A stretch of DNA of 64,000 nt from Gossypium raimondii. Taxonomy: Eukaryota > Streptophyta > Magnoliopsida > Malvales > Malvaceae. Positions within the stretch are counted from its first letter, which is position 1; every line of letters begins with the position of its first letter. A program made the position numbers and the translations under genes. Positions 4,171-60,009 of this stretch are shown here, piece by piece. The stretch covers positions 48,083,733 through 48,147,732 of the forward strand of contig NC_068571.1 in assembly GCF_025698545.1 (NCBI RefSeq). The letters run 5' to 3'. Below the pieces are notes generated by a model. That model worked only from the letters and a program-made list of their open reading frames with translations, was not told the origin of the DNA and did no database searches.

Positions 4171-4755
4171 ATGCTAGCAATTATAATTGATTTGTTTGGA
4201 TAAATAATTGTTTTAAGAAAAAAATTAGGTGGTTAGAATTTTATGAATTAAAAAATAATTATAAAAAGAATAATTATATTAAAAATAAATAATATAATAT
4301 ATATAATTATTTTTGTAAAATTATAAATATATTTAATAAATAAAAATTTAAAAATATATTATAATTAAATAAGAATAATATTTAAAGTTTAAATGTTTAT
4401 TATGGTATTAAATGAAAAAAGAATATAAGGAATCTTGAAAAACAAGATGAAATCTTGAAAAAACACCTAGGTGGAACTTGAAAAGGAAAATTGAGTAATT
4501 AAAAAGTCTAAAAGCCCTTATTGAATAATTGCCTTTAAGAAAAAAAAACTTCTCATTGTTACATAACTATTATTGTTTCTTTTAATTTTAAAATGTTACA
4601 CTGGTTAAACTGATAGAAAAATTGTAAATAGAAATAATTGGATTTAAAATTTAAAATTTAAAAATAAAAATTAAAATTTTAAAATAAATAAAAAAGTAAA
4701 TTTTATAGGTTTAACTCCAAATTTTTATTTTATAACACAAATAAATAATGAAGGT
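4170..4755. other. AT-rich intergenic DNA, nothing recognised
   Basis: Extremely AT-rich sequence with A/T homopolymers, no coding potential, and no repeat boundary I can define. It separates the LTR-like repeat from the Mutator-like element. Confidence 0.55.
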
Positions 4756-4996
4756 GTGAAAACTACCCAAAGATATTAGGCTAAATTAACCATATATGCT
4801 AATTTTTAATTAGGCTTATAAGTCGTTTTTTTAATTTAAGGAAATATGTCATTTTGGAGAGAAACGGAAACGCTTTTCGTCTCTCTTTCCTAATGTTAAG
4901 GTTTTTAATATTTTTAGGTTTAGGGTTTTTTTTTTAAAAAAAGCTTAGTTTTTTACTAAAATCGGGGAATTTCAAATGTAGTTTTGAGGAGTCGAG

Positions 4997-5973
4997 GATG
5001 TGATAACGCATCTCATAACACATACATTTCATATGTCGTAACGGGATAGGACCATTACATCAAAAACCCATTTTGGGGAAATCTGGTTTTGGGGTGATTG
5101 TGCTTGATAAGATTAGGGGTTGAAGTCTAAGTCGAGGTCCCAGTCGGCAGTCGTGATACAGTTATGGATTCGAGTATAACTGGGGTCCAGTTGATGATAT
5201 TATGCAGTCACGAGTTCAAGCTTTTTGGATACATCACAAATGATGCCTTATATATACCATACATAAGATTAAAGTCATAATCATAAGGAAAAATGATGGA
5301 TTTTCGGTGTAAGCAATGTAATTTTTTTTCTCTATTTCTATGCAGCTGGTATCTTTAACTTTTCATTTTTTCCGAAGGTTGACACCGAGGTGGACACAAA
5401 AGGACTCTCAAGGGGAGAGCGGATGTTTCGATGGAAGTAAAGGTCAAACTCAGGTCGACGCAGTAGTGGTTGTAGTTATTAATGAGTTGTTTAATAACGA
5501 CAACTATTGTCAGCCCAAAAAGAGTATCACCTTTACTCCACTTAAACAACTGCTCCCCGCCTAAGAGTCCCCTTGCGTCCACAACGGTGTCGGCCTCTGG
5601 ATAAGAAGAAAGGTTAAAAGTATCGACTGCTTAAAAATGAAAAAAAATTACGCTAATTATAGTGGAAAGGCCCGCAAATTTTCCCTATAATTATGCACTC
5701 AAACTTCTATATGTTATTTATAAGGCAACATTTTCGGGTATTTGAAAAGTTTGAGCTCATGGCTGCGTAACAACCATCAACTGGCTCTCGCATTATACCT
5801 CGATCCATGACTGCATAACAACTGTTGATTGAGACCTCCATGTATTTTTCCACTCGTAACCGTACAAAGAAAGATCACCTCGGAATTCGACTTCCCCAGG
5901 ATAGACTTTGGTAGTAATGATTCCATCTCGGCATGATATATGAAATGTGAGCAGCTTGGAGCGATATCGCATC
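4997..5973. repeat. Large imperfect palindrome (foldback), arms about 490 bp
   Basis: The two halves are inverted copies of each other around a centre near 5486, with almost no spacer. The innermost match is GTTGTAGTTATTAATGAG at 5469-5486 against its near-complement up to 5504. Outward pairs include ACTCTCAAGG / ACTCTTAGG, GACACCGAGGTGGAC / GACACCGTTGTGGAC (5381 and 5590), CCAGTTGATG on both arms (5187 and 5785), GATGCCTTATA / GTTGCCTTATA (5243 and 5733), and CATTTCATATGTC / CATTTCATATATC (about 5026 and 5945). Arms are roughly 70-80% similar, with small indels. A transcript across it would fold into a long hairpin. It lies inside the MULE-like element but is too central to be that element's terminal repeats. 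Confidence 0.85.
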
Positions 5974-6689
5974 ATTAACAACCCAATAATACCTCGAACA
6001 TAAAAAAAAATTAACACCGAGAAGTGTTTTATAGAGGATGGATGAAGAGGCTGTGGGAGAAGATGTTTGAGGGACAATGAAACATGAAGTGGAAGACTTG
6101 TTTTATAGGCATGGGGAAGGGATGTATTGCAAAGTAGAAATTTCCCGCAGTCGAAAACACGCTACAGACTAGTGTCTTCCCAGAATATATTCAAAACGTG
6201 CTTAAAAATTACTGAAAAATTGGACGGGCATATACTTTTGAAGAAAAAGAAGTTAGGCATGCTTTCTCTAACCTTTTTTTCTGCTGAAAGTTAAAAGAAG
6301 TTGCCATAGAGAATAATTCTATATAATTGATACACATTTTTAGGCGTCGAATACTATTGGGAGCACTATTTTGATGAAATAATATAACTTTAGAAACGTG
6401 TTTTCAAATAATATTTTTCATTTTATCATCATTTTTTGACAAATGCGTGTATTCATAAATAAATTTTGAAGAACGTATTCCCTCTCTCGCTAGCTTATTT
6501 TCCTATTAAAGGGACGTAATTTACATAACTTAGACACGCATCAAATTAATATAAAAAATTGAATTGTTGAGTTGCTGGAGTCGTTTGTACTTTTTTTTGA
6601 CAACCATCTACTTATTTTTTGGGTACAGTTAATCTAATTTGTGACCAATATTGAAATGAGTCAAAGAGTGAATTTTTTTATCTACTACG

Positions 6690-7440
6690 ATGGTTAAATG
6701 TGTAATACAGTCCGTGGAATTGACGTTTGATCGTACCATTCAATTGCATGAGCTACAAACTAGAATCAGGAGGAAAGCTTGAGGATCAACCCTGGGAAGA
6801 ATTTTAAGGTTGAAATATAGATATCTTGCTTCAGTTGACCCCTATAGGTATGACCTATTTGATGTGAATGACGAGCTCCAACTCGAGACGGTCATATCAT
6901 TGCATGTCTCAGCGGAAATATTGTAATGGAGTTATACGTCAAGTTTGCCGAGGCTGATAGATCTGGCCAATCTTCAGCCACTTTTACGGTGACTGTTGCA
7001 ACCAGAATAGAAGTAGAAAGTCCTACTACACGGTTGTGCGGTGGGTTCATTAGCTTGTTACAAAGCTTGTTCATTTGACATGAATCTAAAATTCGATGGC
7101 TAGTACTAGTCGGGGTATGAACATAACCTTAATCTTGATATTTGGGCTCGGCATTCAATCAATGTGTTCGATCTCAACTTCAGTGCAAGTTTAATGTCAT
7201 GAACTAGAAGCACTTATACCGGGGGTTCATCGATGTACACCAAACACCAAACTAATACCGATTTTGGTGGGCGCATAGGTTACAGAAGAACCAATGACTT
7301 ATTCCTTTAGACGGGGACTAACGAGGGTATTCCGAACCCCTTGCTTGAAGGGGAAAATGAAGGCGCAGATGAGGAAGAAGATGTATGTGAGTAAGAAGAT
7401 GCAATTGAGGAAAAAGATGTAGGTGAGGAACAATGGGTTA
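6690..7440 (+). pseudogene. MULE transposase N-terminal-like fragment
   Basis: Plus-strand translation gives recognisable but frame-broken pieces: RYLASVDPYRYDLFDVNDEL near 6820, then, one frame over, ELYVKFAEADRSGQSSATF with TVTVATRIE near 6930-7010. Further down is an acidic tail rich in E and D (about 7350-7430). From memory this order resembles the N-terminal region of MuDR-type transposases in cotton-like genomes, where an acidic linker precedes the zinc knuckle and DDE domain. Stops and shifts occur between the pieces, and no DDE domain follows. Identity is moderately supported by memory only. Confidence 0.4.
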
Positions 7441-8039
7441 GTGAAATGAACAATAATAAGTGGAGTTAACTAATTGGGATATTACATAGACATAGGCGAC
7501 GCTTCTTCGGGTAGAGTCTATTCGTGAGATCGTGTTTGGCCTTACACTGTTGCTGGGGCGATCACCGTTGCCTCTTCTAACTAAATTGTCTTCTCCTCGC
7601 CTCCACTAATAAAAAAAATAGCTTGCCGATGATTCTGAACCATGACAAGTACTCCAAACAGGCCGCCGTGTCTGCGAAGAAAAGAAGTTCGCGGATGTGT
7701 AAAAATTTCATCCTACGATCCCAAGCCTCGATTTAGTCCTTGTGAATCTCTCGCCAATCCTCGTCGTTCTTCCCTTGCATGTCCACATTGGGCAACTCCT
7801 TCAAGTTTCATGGTGTCGACGGAATTTATTGTCGATATCGAAACTGTCGTATCACCTGGTTTGATTCGTGCATTTCCACCATCGCCTACATTATCAATGA
7901 CACCTTCGCATCCTACATCTCCCAATTTTCCAACACTTCCGATGGGATGCAAGATATGGCATCCATTCATATTGAAAGGCACAATTGTAAATTTCGTACA
8001 TTTATTTTACAAATTATTGCGTAATTAATATAGGTTGGA

Positions 8040-8935
8040 AAGAATAAGTAAATAACCTCAACTTTCGAGCGCTGATTTAACTACATCCTAATATCTTTCA
8101 GCTCCGTAGGTAGTCCCACGTAACTTGGCCCATGGTTCCACTTGTAAAAGCGATATGTTAGTTCAAACATATAATAAATAAAACATTTACCATACAAACT
8201 ATTTATTAATAACTGATTTTTACCTTATCACCAAGAGAAACATGTATGAGTCATTCACTCGGGGACGTAAAAATGGTAGCCTCCACCAGACCCACAACTG
8301 CAGCAGAAATAGGCAACCACTGATTGACATCTTATCCAATTTTGTGGCCCGAAACAACTTCCGGTATAATGTGTCCAAATACGGCCGATCCCCAATTTAG
8401 GTGTCTGTATTCTTTGAAATCTACTAGGTATACTAAATTTTGAGATTTATCGGGCATTAAAATGTTCTCGATTAACTGAAGGATAAATGCTCAGACATAT
8501 TGTCTTTGACTACCTCGGTCGCGTGTGGAGGAAGCTTATCAAAATTTTTCGCCAACCAATTAATCGATATTCGACCACCATCAAACTTATTCGTCACCTT
8601 CCCCAATAATGCCGTGCAAAGATCCTCTTTATCAGGAACGATCACTGCTCCCGTAACGACCGACCCATCTGCCGATAGACCAAGTTGTAACGCCACGTTC
8701 TCCAATGTGATTGCACACTTGCTGCATGGAATATGAAAAGTGTGTCTCGGATCTCCATCTTTCCACTTTCCACCAACGTGCTAATGAGTCTAGGATCAAG
8801 TTTGCAGCCCCGAGCATACAAAATGTATGCAAGAATCCCGCCTCTTGCAAGTAACCACAAATTTCAGTGATCGAAGGCTTTGCCAAATCATGTATAAACG
8901 CCTTCAAAACACGATTATCCGCCTATGTATAATGA
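8040..8935 (-). pseudogene. Plant mobile domain (PMD) protein remnant
   Basis: Minus-strand pieces match the PMD (aminotransferase-like mobile domain) family, often annotated as 'serine/threonine-protein phosphatase 7 long form homolog' or MAIN-like. They include YLQEAGFLH, then CKLDPRLISTLVE, then VALQLGLSADGSVVTGAVIV, KEDLCTALLGKVTNKFDGGR and INWLAKNFDKLPPHATEVV, and further down NHGPSYVGLPTELKDIR near 8090-8140. They lie in order but in different frames with stops, so the copy is broken. PMD proteins act in transposon silencing when host-encoded (MAIN, MAIL1), but the domain also travels in MULE-type transposons. The flanking inverted repeats favour the latter here. Confidence 0.75.
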
Positions 8936-9415
8936 AAATAAAATATTTTAATTAAAAAAATTTTAAATTTAACTTAGTCGAAAATAATAGAAATTAAATT
9001 TTCGTCTTATCATTACTACTTGAACGACGAAAATGTAATTGTCGTCGAAACGAATTAGAGATGTTTCCATTCGTGAAAATTTAATCCAAACGAATAAAAT
9101 ATAGAATAATTAAAAAAACTAATATTTTTAAGCGAGAATATCAAAAAATTTAGAACAAGAACTTAAGAAAATTGAGATTAGAAAGACTGTTGCCTCATTT
9201 TAAATTTTTTTACCGTTACATGACCAACATTCAAAAAATCATTAAATTTAATCATTGAGGAAAAACGCATCCAGCTGATCGCATTTTTCGTTTCTCTTTT
9301 CAGAAACGGTCTATTTCCTTAACAAGGAGGACATAATTGGCTTGCCTAGATATTAAATACATAATAAATGGGTGCAATAGGTGCGAATTTCGGGGGAAAA
9401 AGTGGGAAAATCAAA

Positions 9416-9701: not shown

Positions 9702-12700
9702 ATGGACGTTCTCGTGAAGAAAGAGATCATTGAAACGATAAATGCACGAAAACGGAAGCTAAACGACGTAGCACGTAAACACCTTGAATCGGTCATCCAA
9801 CTCAGCAGTAGTAGCAGTGATTCTGACTCGAATGATGACTCAGACGGTCCGGACGAGAACATCAATGCAAACACCACCATTGCAGCTGTGGACCGACCTG
9901 AAGGCAGGATTAGGAAGAAGAGAAAGGTGAATGACGTCGATTTTCAACTTCCGATGGGGTTTTTGTCTACTCTACCGCCAGATGATCCGATTCCAGCTCA
10001 GTTGGACTCTGTTACGGCGGTTGCTGGTGGTGCTGAGACAGCCGGAGCAGGTGGCAAGTAGTATTTCGAGTGTGCTTTGCAAGCAGTTTTGGAAGGCTGG
10101 AGAATATGACGGAGTCTCATCTACTGATTGTGATTTACCTTCAGGTATTATTAGTTTATAACATCCTCTTAGTAGTAATATACTTATATATTTTGAAGTC
10201 GAGTAATGGATTGTAGGGGATAACGACGTTTCACTTCATCATGCAAAGCCTGCATTATTAATTGTTTGAGCTATGTTTTTCTTTATTTACTCTTTTTTTT
10301 TTTGCGATGCGTCTCCCCTATTTTTCTTTCGACTTGTAGGTGGCATGGATCATGTAAGGGTTCATCCAAAGTTTCTACATTCAAATGCAACGAGTCATAA
10401 ATGGGCTCTTGGAGGTAGAGTTGTCTAACCGATGTCTGTATGTATGTATGTGTTAGGAGTAACTGTTTCAGTTACTAAGTAGTTATTAGTTAACAAACTG
10501 TTATTACTGTTATTACTTTCAGTTTTGAGTAGTTGTACGTCTGCATGCTATATATTCTTGTAGATGAGTTTGTAGAAAGCAAGTAAAAAAGAAGATTTCT
10601 TTCATTATGTTAAGCCGATTTTAACATGGTATTCCTGATCAGTTTTTTTTTCTTTGCATTTCCATGAATACTGAAGCAGTTCTAGGATCTGACACTCCGC
10701 ATCATTCCTCCAACACTGGAGGGGCAACTCAGTCACCTGATCTTGGAAATGGTGGGTTGACTGTTCAGTATTTTCAGAAACATGATACTGTAAAACTTGC
10801 AGAGCACAACTTCTTGCTGTGGAAGCATCAGTTATTGCTGATTCTTGAAGGTTACGGGCTGGAAGGTTTTGTACTGGGAACGGTTTCGGTTCCTCTTGCG
10901 GTCGTTACTGGAGCTGATGGTCGTCTGGTTGACAATCCAGGTTTTCTCGTTCATAAAAAGCAAGATAAGTTTCTTGCTTCTTGGCTTTTATCGACGGTTA
11001 CGGATGAAGTTTTAGTTCATCTTAGTGCAGCTAAGACGAGTGTTTCTATCTGGACCACTATTGAGAGACGTTTTGGTACAACGTCCGATATTAAGATTTT
11101 GAGTTTGCGTCATGCATTATACTCGATTAAGAAAGCTGGTTTGACAGTTAAAGAGTATTTGTCGAAGGTGAAGACTTTGTGTGATAGCTTAACAGCTGTT
11201 GGTAGTTTGGTCACAGAAAGGGAACAAATTAGTGTTATTCTATCTGGACTTCCCATTGAGTATGAGTCCATACGGGTTTTTGCATCTGCCACATCCATCT
11301 CCTTAGATCTATTGACTGACATGCTTTTCGATTGTGAAACTAGACATTTGGCTTTACTTTCAGAAGTTCCTGTGCAGGCAAACTTAACCAAATATCAAGA
11401 TGAAGCAGCAGATTCGAAACCTTTGCGTTCTCAAGACTCCAGGCAAAGTAATCGTAGTTCAGGCCGTGGCTGGTCGCGTGGTAGAACTAGAGGTGGTGGT
11501 CGTAGCTGGTCTCGGTCTAGACCTCAATGTCAACTGTGTGGCAAAATTGGCCATATTGTTCAAAATTGTTATCATCGATTTGATGAGAATTTCTTTGGTC
11601 AAAACCCCTCGATTAATTTTCATCAAGCTCATGGTTTGACTCCTGCAACCGCATGCTCTCCTGTTCACTGTTCTGGCTCGTGTTCTTGTTCTTCATCCAC
11701 AACTTCTGGTCAGACTTGGTATCCAGACTCGGTTGCGACGAATCATGTTACACCTGATGATTCTAATCTGGTGTTTGTCTCTCCATATATAGGTACAGGA
11801 CAAGTCGTTATGGGCAACGGTAAGTCTGCTTCTATAGCTAATGTAGGTTCTTCTACAGTTATGGCTGGTTCTAGACTTCTACACCTTCAACATGTTTTAC
11901 ATGTTCCTACTGTGTGTAAAAATTTGTTGTCTGTGGGGCAGTTCGCTAAAGATAATGGAGTTTACTTTGAATTTCATCCTTATCTATGTTTTGTGAAGGA
12001 CCTTCAGACAGGGAAGATTCTTCTCGAGGGCCACATGCATGATGGCCTCTACCGATTTCAGTTTTCCAAGTCTACTTCTGGTATTGACAGATCGGAGTTG
12101 AAGTCCAGCTCGTGCTTCATCAACAGTGCTCAGTTTTCAACTGCCACTCTTTGGCACAACAGACTTGGACATCCCTGCTCTACTGCCTTGACTCGTGTGT
12201 TGAAGTCTTGTAAAATTCCTTTTGTACAAAGTCATTTGGATCAAATTTGTACAGCCTGCCAGATGGGCAAGGCTCATAAGCTTCCATTTTCTTTGTCGCA
12301 AACTGTCTACAAATTTCCTTTTGATCTTGTGGTCTCAGATGTATGGGGGTCAGCTCACATGCCTTCAAATGGGTTTTCATACTATGTATCTTTTGTTGAT
12401 ATGCATAGTAAATACACATGGGTCTATTTCCTTAAAAACAAATCTGAGGTTCTTCAATGTTTTATCAACTTTTATCAGATGGTTAAAATTCAGTTTGGTC
12501 GATCTATCAAGATGCTACAAACGGATTGGGGAGGTGAGTATCGTGTTTTGGCTAAGGAACTCTCTCGTCTTGGTGTTCAACATAGGGTCACGTGTCCCTA
12601 CACTTCTGAACAGAACGGAGTTGCTGAACGGAAGCATAGACAAGTTGTGGATATGGGGTTGTCCCTCCTAGCTCAGTCTGGTGCGTCGTTGAAATACTGG

Positions 12701-15700
12701 TATTATACCTTTGCGTATGCGGTCTTCATAACAAACAGGCTCCCTACTCCAGTATTACAACAGCTAAGTCCATATGAAGTTCTTTTGAGTGAGGAGATTT
12801 ATATGGTGCAGCCTCTAAGGTTCGAACAACAAGGGACCAACGGTGAGCAGTTAGTTTGCAAGCTCCGGAAGGCCTTATATGGTCTTAAACAGACACCTCG
12901 GGCCTGGTTTCACAAGTTGAGAGAATTCTTGGTGTCCATGAAATTTGAAGTTTCCAAAGCGGATAATTCTTTATTCATTCTTTGATCGAAGTCCCAGCTA
13001 GTCTATGTGCTAGTCTACGTTGATGATATTATCATCACTGGAAATGATGCTCAGGCTATAGGGAATTTTGTCCAACAACTTCATGCAAAGTTCTCATTAA
13101 AGGACCTAGGCAAGCTGACATACTTTCTTGGTGTTGAAGTTCGTTACACTTCACAAGGACTTTTTCTGTCCCAAAAGAAGTATATTTTGGACCTTCTCAA
13201 ACGGGCGTCTATGGACAGGTCGAATAGCCTGCCAACACCGATGGTTACTACGTGTCATCTCCCGTCTACTTCTGGCAGCCTAGTGGAGGATGACCACCAT
13301 TATCGGAGTATTGTTGGGGCCCTGCAGTACATAGTCATCACACGACCAGATATTGCATACTCGGTTAACAAGGTTTGTCAGTACATGCACAGACCTTTGG
13401 ATGTTCATTTTAAGGCTGTAAAAAGAATTCTAAGGTATCTACAAGGGACGTTGAATTATGGACTAAAGTTCATTCGATCGTCAAATTTTCTTCTTGAAGG
13501 GTTCTCGGATGCAAGTTGGGGTTCTGATGTGGATGATCGCAGGTCCACTTCAGGATACTGTGTGTTTCTCGGGGGAAATCCTATCTCCTGGAGCTCCAGA
13601 AAGCAGCAAGTTATCTCTCGGTCGATGGCAGAAGCAGAATACAGGAGTGTCGCACATCTCACTGCTGAGTTGGTTTGGATCCGGTCATTATTGATTGAGT
13701 TGAATGTGTCAATCCCTAAGAAGTCTTTTATTTGGTGCGATAGTTCAGCTGCGGTTGCGGTAGCAGGAAACCCTGTTCTTCACTCAAAGTTTAAGCATGT
13801 TGAGATGGACCTATTTTTTGTCCGAGAAAAGGTTGCAGCTGGTGTTCTACAAGTAGGGCATGTTTCTGCTTCAGATCAGATTGCAGATGTGTTGACAAAG
13901 CCTCTATCAGTAGGAGCTTTCACTAAATTTCGAGAACAGCTATGCGTGTGTAATTCAAGTCAAGAAGCAGTTACTGATGACAAGAGTTAATTAGTACGGG
14001 GAATGTTAGGAGTAACTGTTTCAGTTACTAAGTAGTTATTAGTTAACAAATTGTTATTACTGTTATTACTTTCAGTTTTGAGTAGTTGTACGTCTGCATG
14101 CTATATATTCTTGTAGATGAGTTTGTAGAAAGCAAGTAAAAAAGAAGATTTCTTCCATTATGTTAAGCAGATTTTAACAGTATGTCAGTTATTCCGGTTA
14201 GATGAGAAGAGCCATTTCTTTTGTAGAAGTGTTCTTATTGGTAGGGGTATGTTTATTAATTTTACCTTTGCAGCTTTTGCGGAGCTTCTTGACAACTCTT
14301 TGGATGAGGTACCTGATGCCTCTACTCTTTCAATTATGTAGTGTTTGCTCTTCTCTTTTTTTTCGTTCTTTTTTTTTTGTGTGTGTGTCTTCATTTTCTG
14401 ATTTTAGGTCTGCAATGGAGCAACATATGTTAATATGGACATGCTTAAATGTAAGAAAGATGGGAATCAAATGTTGCTAATTGAAGGTACTGTATTTTCA
14501 CTTCTCACGTTTACTTACTGATGCTTATTATGTTGGCTTCAAAGTCCTCATGTGACCTATTGATTCTTTCTGCATTTTAATAAGTTAAACTATGAGGTAG
14601 AGGGTAAAGAACAGTAGGACTAGCTAGGCAAGTAATGACAGTCCTGCATTTTTTGTTTGCTTGTTTCTGTATGGTCTTCAAAGAATCAAGATGTATAACA
14701 TGATACATTTCAGAAATTTATTCTTGTCATTGCAGATAATGGTGGCGGGATGGATCCTGATAAAATGCGTCAGTGCATGTCTCTCGGATACTCGGCAAAA
14801 AGCAAAGTAGCAAACGCCATTGGACAATGTATTTAGTGATTTCTACAGTCTAGAAAAAAAAAGATATTTTGGAGTTGCTATTTGGCTTCCGCAGGGCATT
14901 TTACACTTGCATTTGTTTTCTACAGATGGTAATGGATTCAAGACTAGTACCATGAGGCTTGGCGCAGATGTTATTGTATTTTCCCGGTGTCGTGGAAAAG
15001 ATGGAAAACAGTTAGTCTTTCTTTATTTCTTCTTGCTAGAAGAATCATTATTATTGCAAAGATTCAATTGTTTCTTTTTAGTTTGCAAATGTTAAAACTG
15101 GGTTTACTCTGGGTTTACTAGTTTAACCCAGTTTTTACGGATTCACTAAAGGCCTGTTCTACTATACATACCGCACCTAGTATGCCTTTGATTCTCTGTT
15201 GAACCATCTCGATTGACTGATCCGGTTTGATTTTCTTTTCTTAACACTGATATGCTCTATATTTATTTTATATTGTGAATAGATATTAATATTATCTACA
15301 AAGTGTCATCTTCAAGAAAATAGTTATTAGATTGGTTATCAAATTTTGAACATTTTACTTGGTCAGACTAGGTTTTGGTAGTAATATTCACCTTTAAAAA
15401 CTCCCTATCCCTTTGGTGCTAACACATTGTTGTAGCAGTGCCAGTAATTAGGGTTGTATCTTTAGCTTGTGGGCAATGTAAAACGTTTCCAAGTTTGGTG
15501 CTTTGTTTAACAAGTCCATTTATAGTAGGTTGCTATCTGCTAACTATTAGAAACGCTGATGTTAGAGAAAAATTGTTCAAGTATTTACTTGTGTTTGCTC
15601 ACTATATGCATATTTTCTACCTTTACCCTATTTTTTCCTTTTTTTTTTTGATATGCTAGATCTACCTTTTCTTTCTGTTTTTGTCACTGTAACTGGTAAT

Positions 15701-39663: not shown

Positions 39664-40034
39664 GGTTAAAATTTTCTTATAGTCCTTGTACTTTTTAAAA
39701 TTAAGAATTTAGTCATTGTACTTGTATTTCTAGGAATTTAGTCACTCTACTTTTTAGATTTCAAAATTTAGGTCCAACTGCTAACATTGTTAATTTTTCT
39801 TGCTAAATTTGTTCTTGTGACATTTTGAAATAAAAAACTACTCGCTTGGTAGCCATGCAATTAAAAAATATTGTAATTAACCTAAATTTAACAGAAAAAA
39901 ATATTTTTAACACTATTAACAATTGAATCCTAAATTTTGAAATCGAAAAGTAAATGGACTAAATTCCGGAAATATAGGTACAAGGACTAAATTCCTAATT
40001 TTCAAAAATACAGGGATTATAGGCATCTTTTAAC
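39664..40034. repeat. Inverted-repeat MITE, about 370 bp
   Basis: The left arm GGTTAAAATTTTCTTATAGT, CCTTGTACTTTTTAAAATTA and AGAATTTAGTCATTGTAC matches the reverse complement of the right arm (GGTTAAAAGATGCCTATAAT, CCCTGTATTTTTGAAAATTA, GGAATTTAGTCCTTGTAC). Arms run about 150 bases around a short unpaired centre. The same family recurs at 59008-59340 and about 53650-53885. Confidence 0.85.
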
Positions 40035-41120
40035 CATAATTTTATTATCTAAGTAAACAACTTTGTGATATTAATAAACACAATAATATTTGATGCACTG
40101 TCTTATGCACCATCAATAAATAATAGCATGGCACATCGTCATTAAATTAAGCAAAAATTGTGGAGGACATGTAAATAAATACTAATAAATTTATTTAAAT
40201 GTAATTAAACATTAATTAAGACTATTATAAATAAATATTAACAACGGTTGCATTTAAGATTTAAGATTTTAACACTTATTTATAAGATTTTTACTATTGA
40301 ATGTTTTATTATGAAAAAGTATGATGTTATTATTTAGGGATGAGAAGTTTATGCACGCATCAAATATCCTGTAAATTGTGTTACTAAAATCGGTGAACAA
40401 AAGAAAGAGATAAAAGGTGATTTAGGGGACATTGCCGCGATCGGTTCTGACTTTTGATATTTTTGTATTTGATTTTTTCATGTGTGTTGGCTAACTTGTT
40501 TACCTTGCTTATTATTTAATCATTTACATGTAAAGGTTTATTATCAAGTATATGGGGTAAAATTTTAAAAAGTTGCAATGTTTTTTTTCTCATTTATTCT
40601 TTTTAATATAATATAAAGCACTAGACAACTTTCTAATGGCGATGGATAGAGGTGGATTTTAGCATTGAATGGGGTCAATTATTATTAGGATAATTGCAGT
40701 TCTATTGTAGCTACTTTGGTCAGAATTGGTACTATAATTTATTTGTATTTTAGCACTATTATTCTATTGGAAATCATGTTGTGGGGTATTTTATAAGTAC
40801 AACACAAAGTGGATAACTTGATTTTTTAGTTAATTATTCAAGGAGAAATATAGTGGAAGGTGATCTAGATTTTAATATGAATATGAAGATGCTACATGAT
40901 GAGTGGTAAACTTAAATCACCACTTACATGTTTGAAAATATTAGATTAGCTAATCCCTATAGGCGTAGGTCGAAACCGAATTGCATAACCAAACTTTTGG
41001 TGTTGCTTTTCTTCACTTGTTAGTTGTCTCAGTTTTAACTGCTCGTGTATTTGCTTTCATATCAACTCGCAAAAACAATTGTTTCTTTAAATTGATATCA
41101 AAACTTAACACTTGACGCAA
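40035..41120. other. Intergenic DNA
   Basis: AT-rich, with no gene or clear repeat seen. The right end leads into the copia fossil, where a short sequence with GATATCAAAACTTAACACTTG may be its leader. Confidence 0.4.
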
Positions 41121-46005: not shown

Positions 46006-46377
46006 CATTCTCTCATTAGTCAAGGAAGTCTTGATGGAATAGGACTCTTCAAGAATGTAACTTACACGAAAGGCAACAATGTTAACTAGGATTCTTCAAA
46101 CTTTGATGCACATGTTTCCTTTTTAACTAAGGACTCTTTTAAGGACATGTTGCATATGTCATTAGCTGATCTAAGTCTCCTCCCAACCTTAACTTGATCT
46201 TTAAGAGTCATACTTAAACTAGAACTCTTCAAGTACAATCTTACTTCTTGATTAGCATAAGTTTCCATGTTGATTAGCATATACTATTTGGAAGGTGTCG
46301 AACAAGATATGCCAACTCTCTAAAGCACAATACCAAGCACACTTTAGATTGCGAACCAACACAACATATTTTAAATT

Positions 46378-46842
46378 TTGGGTTAATATGTACGAAGGTA
46401 CTTGAACTTAGCAACTTATACCTACTTGGTACTTTAAAGTTGTTTTTTACCTAATTGGTTCTTGAACTTGGAAAACGTAAACCAACTTAGTACTTTTTTT
46501 AGGTATCTGACTAACACTGCTAGAATATGTTGACATGGCATTGATGACCAAGCATTGTGACACGTGACAGCCTCACATTTTGACACATAGAATATTTTTA
46601 TAAATATTTTATAAATATTTTAACTTTTTTCCACGTGTCAAAATGTTAGGCTAGTAACATGTCACCATACTATTGGTTATCAGTGTCAAGTCAACAAATT
46701 CTAACAATGTTATTCAGGTACCTAAAAAAAGTACCAAGTTGGCTTACAGTTTCCAAATTTAGATACTAGTTAGGTCGAAGAAAAAGTTTAAGTACCAAGT
46801 ATAAGTTACCAAGTTTAGATATCTCCAAATATATTAACCCTT
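46378..46842. repeat. Inverted-repeat MITE, about 465 bp
   Basis: The left arm (GGGTTAATATGTACGAAGGT, AGCAACTTATACCTACTTGG) matches the reverse complement of the right arm (GGGTTAATATATTTGGAGAT, GGTAACTTATACTTGGTACT). Pairing continues to a near-palindromic centre where TCACATTTTGACACATAG faces CCACGTGTCAAAATG. The whole element can fold into one hairpin. Confidence 0.88.
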
Positions 46843-47450
46843 AATTTTTTGTCATGATGTATAAATTTATGTGATAAATATAGAGATGTATATTAAGGAT
46901 GTCAATTTAATTTTATTTAGTATATATATGTACCAAAAGAAATTTTAAAAATTTAAGTGGCTATCAAAAGAAAATTCTACAAATTTTGAATGACCGACTC
47001 CTTGTATATACAATGAAATAATTATATATATTCAATTAATAAGTGGTTGGAAGAAGTAGAAGTAGAATTCTTTACTTGAATACCACTCTCGACTCTAATA
47101 AAACTACACTCAAATGATATATTCAAAAGCAACATCATTAATTGATAAAAATGCTTAAGGCAACAGCTTTATAGCATATAATGTTACCTAATTCTCATTA
47201 TAATATACACATTTATTTTAAATTCAAATAAGTTTCATCTAAATTACCAGCTAAGTTATATTAATATGCATTCGAATAACTTGATCTAATTTATAATCAA
47301 CTTTGATATGATATATAAAGTGGTACTAATATTTTCAACACTTTATTTTCATAAACTTTCTAAAAGTAACCCTATCCAAAGTACTTGCTCATCATGATAA
47401 TTATAATATATATATATTAAACATTAACGTAATAAAAACAAAAAACATTA
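46843..47450. other. Intergenic DNA before SWEET copy 2
   Basis: AT-rich. The last ~60 bases match the 3' flank of SWEET copy 1 (ATTGATTGATA, GAGAGAAAAAGATTACA). Confidence 0.45.
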
Positions 47451-53266: not shown

Positions 53267-55720
53267 TCAAACTCCATCATCACTATGTTCTAACTGAGGG
53301 CCATACAAATTTTCATCTCTACCGACTTCGATGTCACCGGAAACTTGCGGGGACGAACTGTGGATATTTGAAGCTTTGATATGATTGATGTTCTTTCCGT
53401 TCACAATCGGCGACGGTTGCTTCCTTTCATGGTCTTTGGCAATGTTGTTATTGAACTTTTTGTAGACTACATACAGTAGCATTTGGATTGTTCCTAGAAC
53501 AACTCCCACAATGTTTGGGAGCTGAGATTATTAAACCAATAAAGAAATCAGATAAAAATTAGGTGAAACTACAACAATAGGAAATTAGAAATGCGTGAAT
53601 GAAGGGGTTGACATTTCATGCATTTGATGAATAGAGAAAATATAATAGATAAATCATTTTTATTCCATCGCTATACTCCCTGCACTTTTCAGATTTTAAA
53701 ATTTAGGTCTAAATATTAATATTGTTAACTTGTTTGGTTAAATTCAAGTTAATTATAAGACTATTTTCAAAATGTAACAACAGCCAATTTAACAAAAAGA
53801 TATTAACAGTTAAACTTAAATTTTGAAATCTAAAATTTAAAAGACTAAATTTTCAATATTTGAAAAGTGCGTATTTTAACTTATATATTTTCATTTCACA
53901 AGTCAAGGTATAGATATGAAATTTAAAACTCTATTTTTCCATCAAATTATGATTATTGTTATGCCTTAGTTAAATCATTAATACTGTTAAAAATTGATTA
54001 GTGAACTAATGTTTATCTTTTTAAATAAAAATAGTGAAAATAATTATTTTGATAGTCCCAATTTCACCTTTTAAATGACAGGAAAATTTTGGGTATCAAT
54101 TTCTTTTTAAAATTCTAAATTATTTATTTATTTAATTGCATTGGTGAATTAGATTTGTTAAGGGTGAGGGAGACTACTCCTTAAAACAAAAGTCTCTCAA
54201 GTGATATCATATTTGTCAGCGAATTTTGGGGATTATTCCTGAATTTTTAAAAATTTTAAATTAATAAAATAAAATTACACTTTAATCCTCTAAAATGATA
54301 AAATTTTGATTTAATCCTTTAAAAAGTTACATTTTTACTATAGTAAAAATTACAATTTAATTTTGTCCCCAAAAAATTGTTTTGGCTTCGTCCCTAATAT
54401 TCCCTAATTGGTGACCTATATGTCATAAGTCAAGAATTCAAACCCCACTAAGGTCGAGACGCTTACGTTCTCTTGGTGGGTGTCTATACACCCACGTATG
54501 GCCGAATTCCTTATGGCGTTCACCATTTGCAAACCAAGTCCCTCATGGAAAGTTGGCTTTTAATAGAGATGGGAGACAAAACTCCGACACAACTACTAAT
54601 CATTATCGAGGTCTAGTTAGTTGCCCAACAAACAACACTTCGAAAACTTCTCCGAAGAGATCGATTCCCTCAACAAAATCTAAGCATAATTATATTAATA
54701 CCAAATTAAAATATAACCTAGTTTTTTAAAATATTAATGCATCTTCAACTTATATATATATATATATATATATATATGGATTTGAAAATACTTACAGATA
54801 TATAGAAGTCCTTAAGAAGTAGTCCGTAAACCAACCACAAGATGGCGCTGCAGGTGAGGAAAAATGATAAAGTGAATGGCATGAACTCCACACTTTTGGT
54901 GTGAATGACCGACCTCTATCAAAAAATTAAACACCATTAATTAATAATTAAAACAAGACAAATCAAATTAAAATTATTGATTAAACAATAATAATTATAT
55001 CTAACCATTATACTCAAAGGAGCTGCAAAAACAGCAGCCGATGTCACCACACATGACCATCCAATAACATGGATTCGACTTCTCCCTTTTGAAAAGAAAT
55101 GTGTGATAAGAACCAAAACAAGAGCTCCCATATTGAATACCAGAAGCAACTTCAATGTCAATATCTGCCAAAACCTTATATAAGCTCGTTATTTTTGTGT
55201 GTATATACATATATGTATATTACAGTATTATTAGTAGTATACCCGAGCTTTCTTGGGAGCATAAACGATGAAGACGATGATGTAAATGGTTTCCACAACA
55301 CAACCAATGGAGTTTATGGTCATTAAAAGGAAAGCATTGGGTTTTAAAGTGGCGTAATAGATCCATAGCATCGCACTCACTAGGGCAACCACGTAAGGTA
55401 GTGATTCGAACCCTTCTGTTGATTTCTTTTTATAAACCCGAACAAATGTTGGCCTGCAATTCTCAATATATCTATACATCAAATCCCATGTTATATATGT
55501 GTATGTATACACAGAAAAAGAAAAGAAAAGAAAAGAAGAAACACTTACAAAGGAGCAAGGTACACCATGAAAGAGAGAATGTTACCTATATTTGTTGGGA
55601 TTTTCAGAAATGAACAAGATGTTAATTATATGAATGTATATGTATGTATATATATGGAAATGGAAATGGAATTATACCTAGAATGCCAGAGATGAATATC
55701 CATGGATGGTGATGAGCCAT
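53267..55720 (-). CDS. SWEET sugar transporter, clade III-like (copy 3, diverged)
   Basis: Six exons (55678-55720, 55549-55585, 55243-55453, 55006-55164, 54796-54915, 53267-53521) join in frame to 274 residues. The exon phases and the first three exon lengths are identical to the other two copies. Features: MAHHHPWIF start, [17 protein letters not shown] (Asn16, P28), [20 protein letters not shown] (P46), a helix-3 asparagine in LLMTINS (N74), FAAPLSIM (P146), [16 protein letters not shown] (P163), and [10 protein letters not shown] (N193). The acidic/Ser-rich tail ends LEHSDDGV. No lesion was seen. Intron 5 is 1.27 kb and contains MITE-type repeats. It is more distant from copies 1 and 2 than they are from each other, so it is the older member of the array. 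Sucrose export is likely by clade. Subtype number cannot be fixed by eye. Confidence 0.94.
53650..53885. repeat. Inverted-repeat MITE fragment in SWEET copy 3 intron 5
   Basis: The left CTCCCTGCACTTTTCAGATT, TTAAAATTTAGGTCTAA pairs with the right TTAAATTTTGAAATCTAAAA and GAAAAGTGCGTATTTTAAC. It is the same family as 39664-40034. Confidence 0.65.
54225..54680. repeat. MITE-like copy and a second unclassified repeat in intron 5
   Basis: 54225-54405 is the 'GGCTTCGTCCCTA' family (inverse of GGGGCGAAGCC), with ATTTTGATTTAATCC and TACTATAGTAAAAATTAC words. 54430-54680 is GC-richer (GGTGGGTGTCTATACACCC, CCGAATTCCTTATGGCG) and looks like a fragment of another dispersed element of unknown class. Confidence 0.5.
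54751..54776. repeat. (TA)n microsatellite in intron 5
   Basis: A run of about 12 TA units lies 20 bases from exon 5's donor side. Likely polymorphic. Confidence 0.9.
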
Positions 55721-59007: not shown

Positions 59008-59340
59008 TGTTAAAATATAATTTGAAATTTAGTTCTTATACTTTTATTTTTAAGAATTTAGTCCCTTACATATCAAAATTCAAATACAATCATTAACACT
59101 GTTAGAATTATTTTATCAAAATTTAAGTTCATTGCAATATCATTTTTTAGTTAGATCTACTAAGTGACTTTTTTATTTTAAAATGTCACACCAACAAATT
59201 GAACAAAAATAAAAATAGTATTAACAAATAGACCTACATTTTAAAAGCTAAAAGGTAGAGGACTAAATTCTTAAAGATAAAAGAATAGGACTGAATTTCA
59301 AATTTCTAAAAGTACAGTGACTTATGGCTTATTTTAACCT
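59008..59340. repeat. Inverted-repeat MITE next to the tRNA gene
   Basis: The left GTTAAAATATAATTTGAAAT and TTTAAGAATTTAGTCC pair with the reverse complement of the right (GGTTAAAATAAGCCATAAGT, CTTTAAGAATTTAGTCC). It is the same family as 39664-40034 and starts about 20 bases after the tRNA. Confidence 0.85.
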
Positions 59341-60009
59341 AGCTTTTTATGTTTTTAAGGGTCATTAAACCTTTCTTGGTGAGTATTTGTTGTATTTGAT
59401 ACACTAACAGTATATTTTTTAAACTCCACAAATAAAGTTATAAATTTACCATATATATTATTTTTAACTATACTCTATACCCAACCTAGGTTGTGAAACT
59501 TTTTTACTTTTCAATCAAAATCCCACATTTGCTATTCGCATGGTCTGAGTTGTTAGAAAAACTAAATAAGAAATTGAAACAATAATGATGGTTTTGAGGG
59601 CATGTAGAACACTTGTCTTAAGGTTTTATTACAGGGGGTTTGATCAAATTGGTTTATCAATTTAGTCTTTATAGTATTGAAAAGAAATTTTAAAAGTTTT
59701 TATGATTTTGTAAGTGAAATTAAACTGCAATTAAAAATTAAAAATTTCCAAGATTAATTTGACTGGGTCTTAAAAACTTCCCATCTTTTATATAGGCATA
59801 GAATACGTGTATGTTTCCATGAATAGTATGCAAGTTAAATATCTGATGGTGTTTGTCGAAGCTATTGTAAACCCAAAATTGGACCTCGGAAAAACCATCC
59901 ATTCGGCTTGCTATCCCCATCTCTCTCAACCCTATTTTTGTTGTTTCATTTAATCTTTTAAAGAAAATTGAGACAAAAGAAAACCACCAAAAAAAAATAA
60001 AAAATAGAC
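59341..60009. other. Intergenic DNA and leader of the 60-kb gene
   Basis: No gene recognised. A C/T-rich and A-rich leader (AAAGAAAACCACC) precedes the ATG at 60010. Confidence 0.4.

Follow-up and report, generated by a model that had tools for sequence, protein, structure and literature searches.

A spacer-free 1-kb palindrome resident in a MULE family of Gossypium raimondii, possibly an inverted-duplicated promoter/leader module

A foldback of about 1 kb lies in a 64,000-nucleotide stretch of the Gossypium raimondii genome (hereafter the window), inside what the initial annotation took to be a MULE-like element. The locus raises the question of whether such a structure is a special hairpin locus that silences the MULE/PMD family in trans, as that annotation proposed, or a regular part of the transposon that carries it. 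A foldback inside a transposon does not by itself make a silencing locus, and comparison across the whole family can separate constraint on sequence from constraint on pairing.

Geometry of the foldback and its host element

Local alignment pairs 5024-5451 with the reverse complement of 5948-5522. The alignment has 433 columns, 302 of them identical (69.7%), and includes 11 gap positions; it scores 177, compared with a mean of 21 and a maximum of 31 in 200 dinucleotide shuffles. The predicted RNA fold of 4997-5976 reaches -423.1 kcal/mol versus -241.2 (sd 8.3) in 20 shuffles (z -21.9). At the centre of a 40-copy consensus, pairing extends to neighbouring bases, leaving no spacer. Using the alignment and the family consensus, we place the left arm at 4977-5485 (plus strand) and the right arm at 5486-5993 (minus strand), so that the palindrome covers approximately 4977-5993. 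These results confirm the inverted duplication, its centre near 5486, the absence of a spacer and the competence to fold, all of which had been proposed from the letters of the window. The limits first given (4997-5973) each fell short by about 20 bases; the pairing was rightly called imperfect, and the figure of about 75% is a little high for the window copy and low for the consensus (79%).

In a scan of the window with a centre every 25 bases and a half-length of 490, this foldback was the top palindrome, and the next-ranked were two shorter ones near 46612 and 39850. The former (46373-46847, 475 bp) is 75% self-complementary and MITE-like in appearance; the latter (39664-40035, 372 bp) is 71% self-complementary and has related stretches at 53684-53851 and 59019-59341. 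The window also contains a copia-type LTR retrotransposon (10451-14179, type assigned by eye) with long open frames. With 98.3% identity between its paired 176-bp repeats, it is probably young.

The host element was delimited at 4779-9346 (plus strand) by left-end alignment and by comparison with a 7.6-kb relative, L048. It is flanked by AAGATATTA at 4770-4778 and TAGATATTA at 9347-9355, read from the sequence, which agree in 8 of 9 bases, and L048 has the 9-bp duplication CTCTTTTTG on both flanks. Target-site duplications of MULEs are given as 8-11 bp (PMC6446971), a range that includes both copies. L048 also has terminal inverted repeats that are 84.8% alike (120-198 vs 7705-7630). The left terminal region of the window copy (4779-4935, plus strand) begins with GGCTAAATTA and was defined by left-end alignment and 40 scored genome matches; its segment 4798-4870 aligns in reverse with the right end of L048 (82%). 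A 12-base terminal pattern, searched for exactly, had no match in 47 loci, and variants of it are present in the left-end alignment. Within this region, near 4857-4889, lies a further short palindrome (GAGAGAAACGGAAA...TTTCTCTC), found in many aligned copies with a variable centre. The right terminal region (9185-9346, minus strand) is decayed, and its part 9185-9297 matches L048 7532-7645 at 79%.

Between these ends, a decayed remnant of N-terminal transposase coding sequence occupies 6656-7403 (plus strand) according to the consensus frame, which in a 24-row consensus stays open from 6571 to where that consensus ends, at 7428; the frame has 309 aa and a Met near 6656. We take this frame to be MURA-like, a likeness drawn by eye. 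The PMD-bearing half, also decayed and with approximate outer limits, lies on the minus strand at 7436-8930, with its PF10536 match within 8472-8780. In Pfam searches, this domain was found with E 6.5e-10 in the window and E 4.9e-26 on the minus strand of L048, where the transposase-like frames recognised by eye are on the plus strand; the MuDR-type domain DBD_Tnp_Mut (PF03108) gave a sub-threshold match in L048 (E 0.044). The window copy has no counterpart of L048 2683-5640, with the junction at window 7403/7436. By this sequence comparison, it is an internally deleted, decayed member of the family. Together, the PF10536 matches and the MULE ends uphold the initial placement of the foldback within a MULE that also bears a PMD. 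The palindrome is situated near the left end, starting about 200 bp inside the element, and occupies 288-1266 in L048.

Distribution and age of the palindrome

Three queries were run against the genome to which the window belongs (750.8 Mb in 281 contigs). The foldback query returned 471 first-look candidates, and all 40 that were scored matched on both strands. A one-arm query, taken from a diverged copy, gave 40 scored places (16 already known and 24 new), with both arms present in 14 of the new ones. The transposase-region query likewise gave 40 scored places, of which 15 were also foldback-query places. Upstream stretches were fetched for 11 of the other 25, the remaining 14 places being neither shared nor fetched; both arms were found in six of the 11, and the other five had just short weak matches (25-62 bases) that are uninformative on absence. 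A tally by hand over all queries yields lower bounds of 70 places carrying one or both arms and 60 carrying both. MULE homology outside the palindrome was present on at least one side in 39 of 39 fetched copies (the best matches). Judged from these sequences, the palindrome is a resident, old and standard component of a repeated plant MULE family. A single unique hairpin locus is ruled out, as all 40 scored genome matches carry both arms, and the search for arm relatives suggested at the outset has thus spoken against the special locus proposed there. We did not find a description of this palindrome among the literature matches listed (titles and abstract openings).

The consensus of 40 copies is identical to its own reverse complement in 816 of 1030 columns, and the arms of subclade consensuses are 74-81% alike. 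The arms were therefore already about 20% apart before the family spread, which means that the inverted duplication predates the spread and bears out its initial description as old. In the consensus, the longest stretches of identity between the arms measure 27 and 20 bp, which by our own estimate is close to what chance would produce at 80% identity. Differences between the consensus arms comprise 50 transitions and 48 transversions, whereas within copies transitions outnumber transversions about 3.1-fold, as if the arm differences had come from copies without methyl-C decay or were saturated. In the copies, C-to-T type changes affect 26.5% of CG, 27.3% of CHG and 11.5% of CHH sites, with A/T-site transitions at 3.9%; this decay pattern fits dense methylation, which we infer from it.

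Constraint on sequence, coding and pairing

Evolutionary rates were calculated at consensus positions that escape methyl-C decay, namely A/T sites. The alignment had 24 rows, consisting of 17 of the 39 fetched palindrome loci, the window copy, L048 and five further copies; the 22 fetched loci left out were judged not colinear far enough. Divergence from the consensus was 5.9% in the palindrome (516 sites), 5.7% in the transposase exon part 6656-7000 (196 sites) and 12.1% in the leader 6000-6640 (417 sites), with p 1e-20 for palindrome versus leader. At well-aligned non-homopolymer A/T sites the respective values were 7.0, 5.7 and 13.8% (p 1.4e-7); sites and copies are related rather than independent, so both p-values are optimistic. 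The same order was repeated in six copies ascertained through the transposase (at A/T sites the arms agreed with the consensus at 92.5 and 94.1%, the two parts of the leader at 86.3 and 89.9% and the exon part at 94.5%), hence the slow palindrome is not merely an effect of ascertainment. Counting against constraint, the exon part 7000-7400 had an A/T agreement of 0.887 (fast) in the palindrome-ascertained set, versus 0.93 in the transposase-ascertained set. Since the palindrome evolves at half the rate of the leader and at about that of the first exon part, it was probably under constraint while elements were active. Indels were not restrained over the long run, as the consensus arms have about 9 gaps per 98 mismatches (0.09), a higher ratio of indels to substitutions than the 0.03 within copies.

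These rates bear on the origin of the palindrome. A foldback MITE could have inserted into an ancestral MULE and been carried along as a passenger; the long inverted repeats of foldback MITEs are separated by a short spacer or none, the palindrome is spacer-free too, and the two shorter MITE-type foldbacks demonstrate that such elements are present in the window. However, foldback MITEs are whole small elements, whereas this palindrome begins well inside a larger one; every fetched copy among the best matches was flanked on one side or both by MULE homology, and evolution slower than that of the leader is not expected of a passenger. We therefore regard a MITE origin as improbable.

Another reading is a small protein encoded on the minus strand of the palindrome. 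On that strand, an open frame of 181 aa is present in the consensus (5335-5874), and A/T rates in the right arm, one of five regions tested, differ by phase (site permutation p 0.006). Against this, the slow phase corresponds to codon position 1, with positions 2 and 3 alike (0.059 and 0.061, phases assigned by hand) and no usual third-position excess, and the mismatches between the arms have no clear phase (p 0.08). In a per-cell phase test within the palindrome, small p-values mostly shrank or vanished when sites were taken as the unit. Frames of the window had no Pfam match above the cut-off here, and for three frames of the arm region the search returned nothing above the cut-off and one sub-threshold, unrelated CarS-like match (E 0.1), which rules out Pfam-recognised coding in those three frames. 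The weak three-base rhythm of the right arm and the 181-aa frame leave a small chance of coding, and we consider such a protein very improbable.

Selection on pairing left no sign in the family. Among 40 copies, an arm paired about as well with arms from elsewhere in the family (0.666) as with its own partner (0.667; permutation p 0.165), a comparison of limited power because most changes are post-insertion decay; compensating changes expected of a selected hairpin did not appear in these copies, with power limited in the same way. Consensus mismatches had no wobble strand bias, with 26 G-U and 24 mirror A-C pairs. Upkeep of pairing by compensation or by gene conversion between the arms is rejected on the arm tests and the subclade consensuses. 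A search of 4700-6400 on both strands gave no Rfam match at E <= 1, and this absence of covariance-model matches rules out a known miRNA or structured RNA family of Rfam. The arms thus seem to have been retained for their sequence rather than for folding.

The same comparisons weigh on the initial proposal that the foldback is transcribed and diced into 21-24 nt RNAs that silence the MULE/PMD family, in the manner of Mu killer. Its fold energy far below that of shuffles, the inward-facing TATA-like boxes in both arms (described below) and a decay of copies compatible with dense methylation all agree with it. There is precedent in Mu killer, a MuDR-derived inverted duplication (PMC3440606), and LP-hairpins are reported for 62.82% of maize Mutator elements (PMC10760457). 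On the other hand, the palindrome belongs to the targeted family itself, the 7.6-kb relative included; the three arm-region frames have no Pfam match above the cut-off; and own arms pair no better than foreign ones, with G-U and A-C mismatches nearly equal. The longest perfect duplex run between the arms of the window copy is 13 bp. Of its 997 21-mers, 161 are present in at least one of 45 other copies; the median other copy has 8 in common with it, and 8 of the 45 have none. With so few 21-mers in common, broad trans-silencing by the window copy looks weak, and we find this proposal unlikely as it was framed.

A promoter/leader module and its relation to known systems

Each arm contains an inward-facing TATA-like box, TATATATA at 5249-5256 (plus strand) in the left arm and TATAAATA at 5715-5722 (minus strand) in the right, for which we suggest a promoter role. 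When up to three changes are allowed, all 40 copies have the 16-mer around the left box and 34 of 40 have the 18-mer around the right box; the bases of the boxes themselves have mean agreements of about 0.95 and 0.96, respectively. This is a small edge over the value of about 0.93 at A/T sites generally; the boxes are barely better kept than such sites, so the promoter role depends on the reading of the motif. Splice-acceptor-like stretches with at most three changes were present in 30 of 40 copies for the left arm and 21 of 40 for the right. A bacterial-type promoter scan, ill-suited to a plant, gave counts similar to those in shuffles.

We consider it rather likely that in this plant MULE family the foldback is an inverted-duplicated 5' promoter/leader (regulatory) module. 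A promoter-like segment of about 510 bp, its activity presumed from the motifs, would have been duplicated in inverted orientation ahead of the family's spread, the duplication and its relative age being visible in the sequence. The product would be a spacer-free palindrome with two inward TATA-like boxes, flanked by the left terminal repeat on one side and the transposase gene on the other. Active elements may then have kept both arms for the primary sequence of each, which would account for the slow evolution observed. After insertion, each copy would have been silenced, presumably by methylation, and have decayed mainly by the C-to-T changes seen in the copies. A transcript from either arm would cross the centre and could fold or overlap with its counterpart, making dsRNA and siRNA plausible by-products; hairpin or overlapping RNA is a possible by-product if the palindrome is transcribed. 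A stronger version, in which the 1-kb palindrome is a built-in convergent promoter pair under selection, with sense and antisense transcripts forming dsRNA through which the element limits its own activity, appears doubtful to us.

The closest working model is Mu killer of maize, derived from MuDR, which shares with this palindrome an inverted duplication of MULE 5' sequence and a potential foldback RNA (PMC3440606). In its description, Mu killer is a rearranged locus that carries about 1300 bp of mudrA as an inverted duplication, plus two TIRA copies (PMC3440606). In contrast, the cotton palindrome is resident in many copies, has arms 20-30% apart and ends before the transposase frame: the arms stop at about 5993 and the consensus frame opens after 6571, so that, unlike those of Mu killer, they do not cover transposase coding sequence, and the three arm frames also lack a Pfam match above the cut-off. 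The Mu killer paper also proposes short antisense transcripts in place of a long hairpin (PMC3440606). Under the miRNA inverted-duplication model, an old fold-capable inverted duplication is a point of likeness (PMC3237417); the palindrome differs from that model in having no Rfam match and no visible pairing constraint.

The first description of PMD involved a rice MULE, and its capture by MULEs has been proposed (PMC5418596). Like the MULEs reported there, the window family combines transposase-like frames and the PF10536 domain in one element (PMC5418596). PMD-C of grasses and Amborella is reported as transposase fusions (PMC5418596); in the window family, by contrast, PMD lies on the strand opposite the transposase-like frames. 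In tea, PMD and transposase genes are reported to yield 21-nt phased siRNAs (PMC10673657), which makes small RNAs against such elements plausible through other routes.

The MULE palindrome may be seen as an anatomical variant within an element type already known, and it looks constrained in sequence and not in pairing. If its slow evolution is real, a successful transposon has tolerated or used a long hairpin-prone sequence, even though silencing would be expected.
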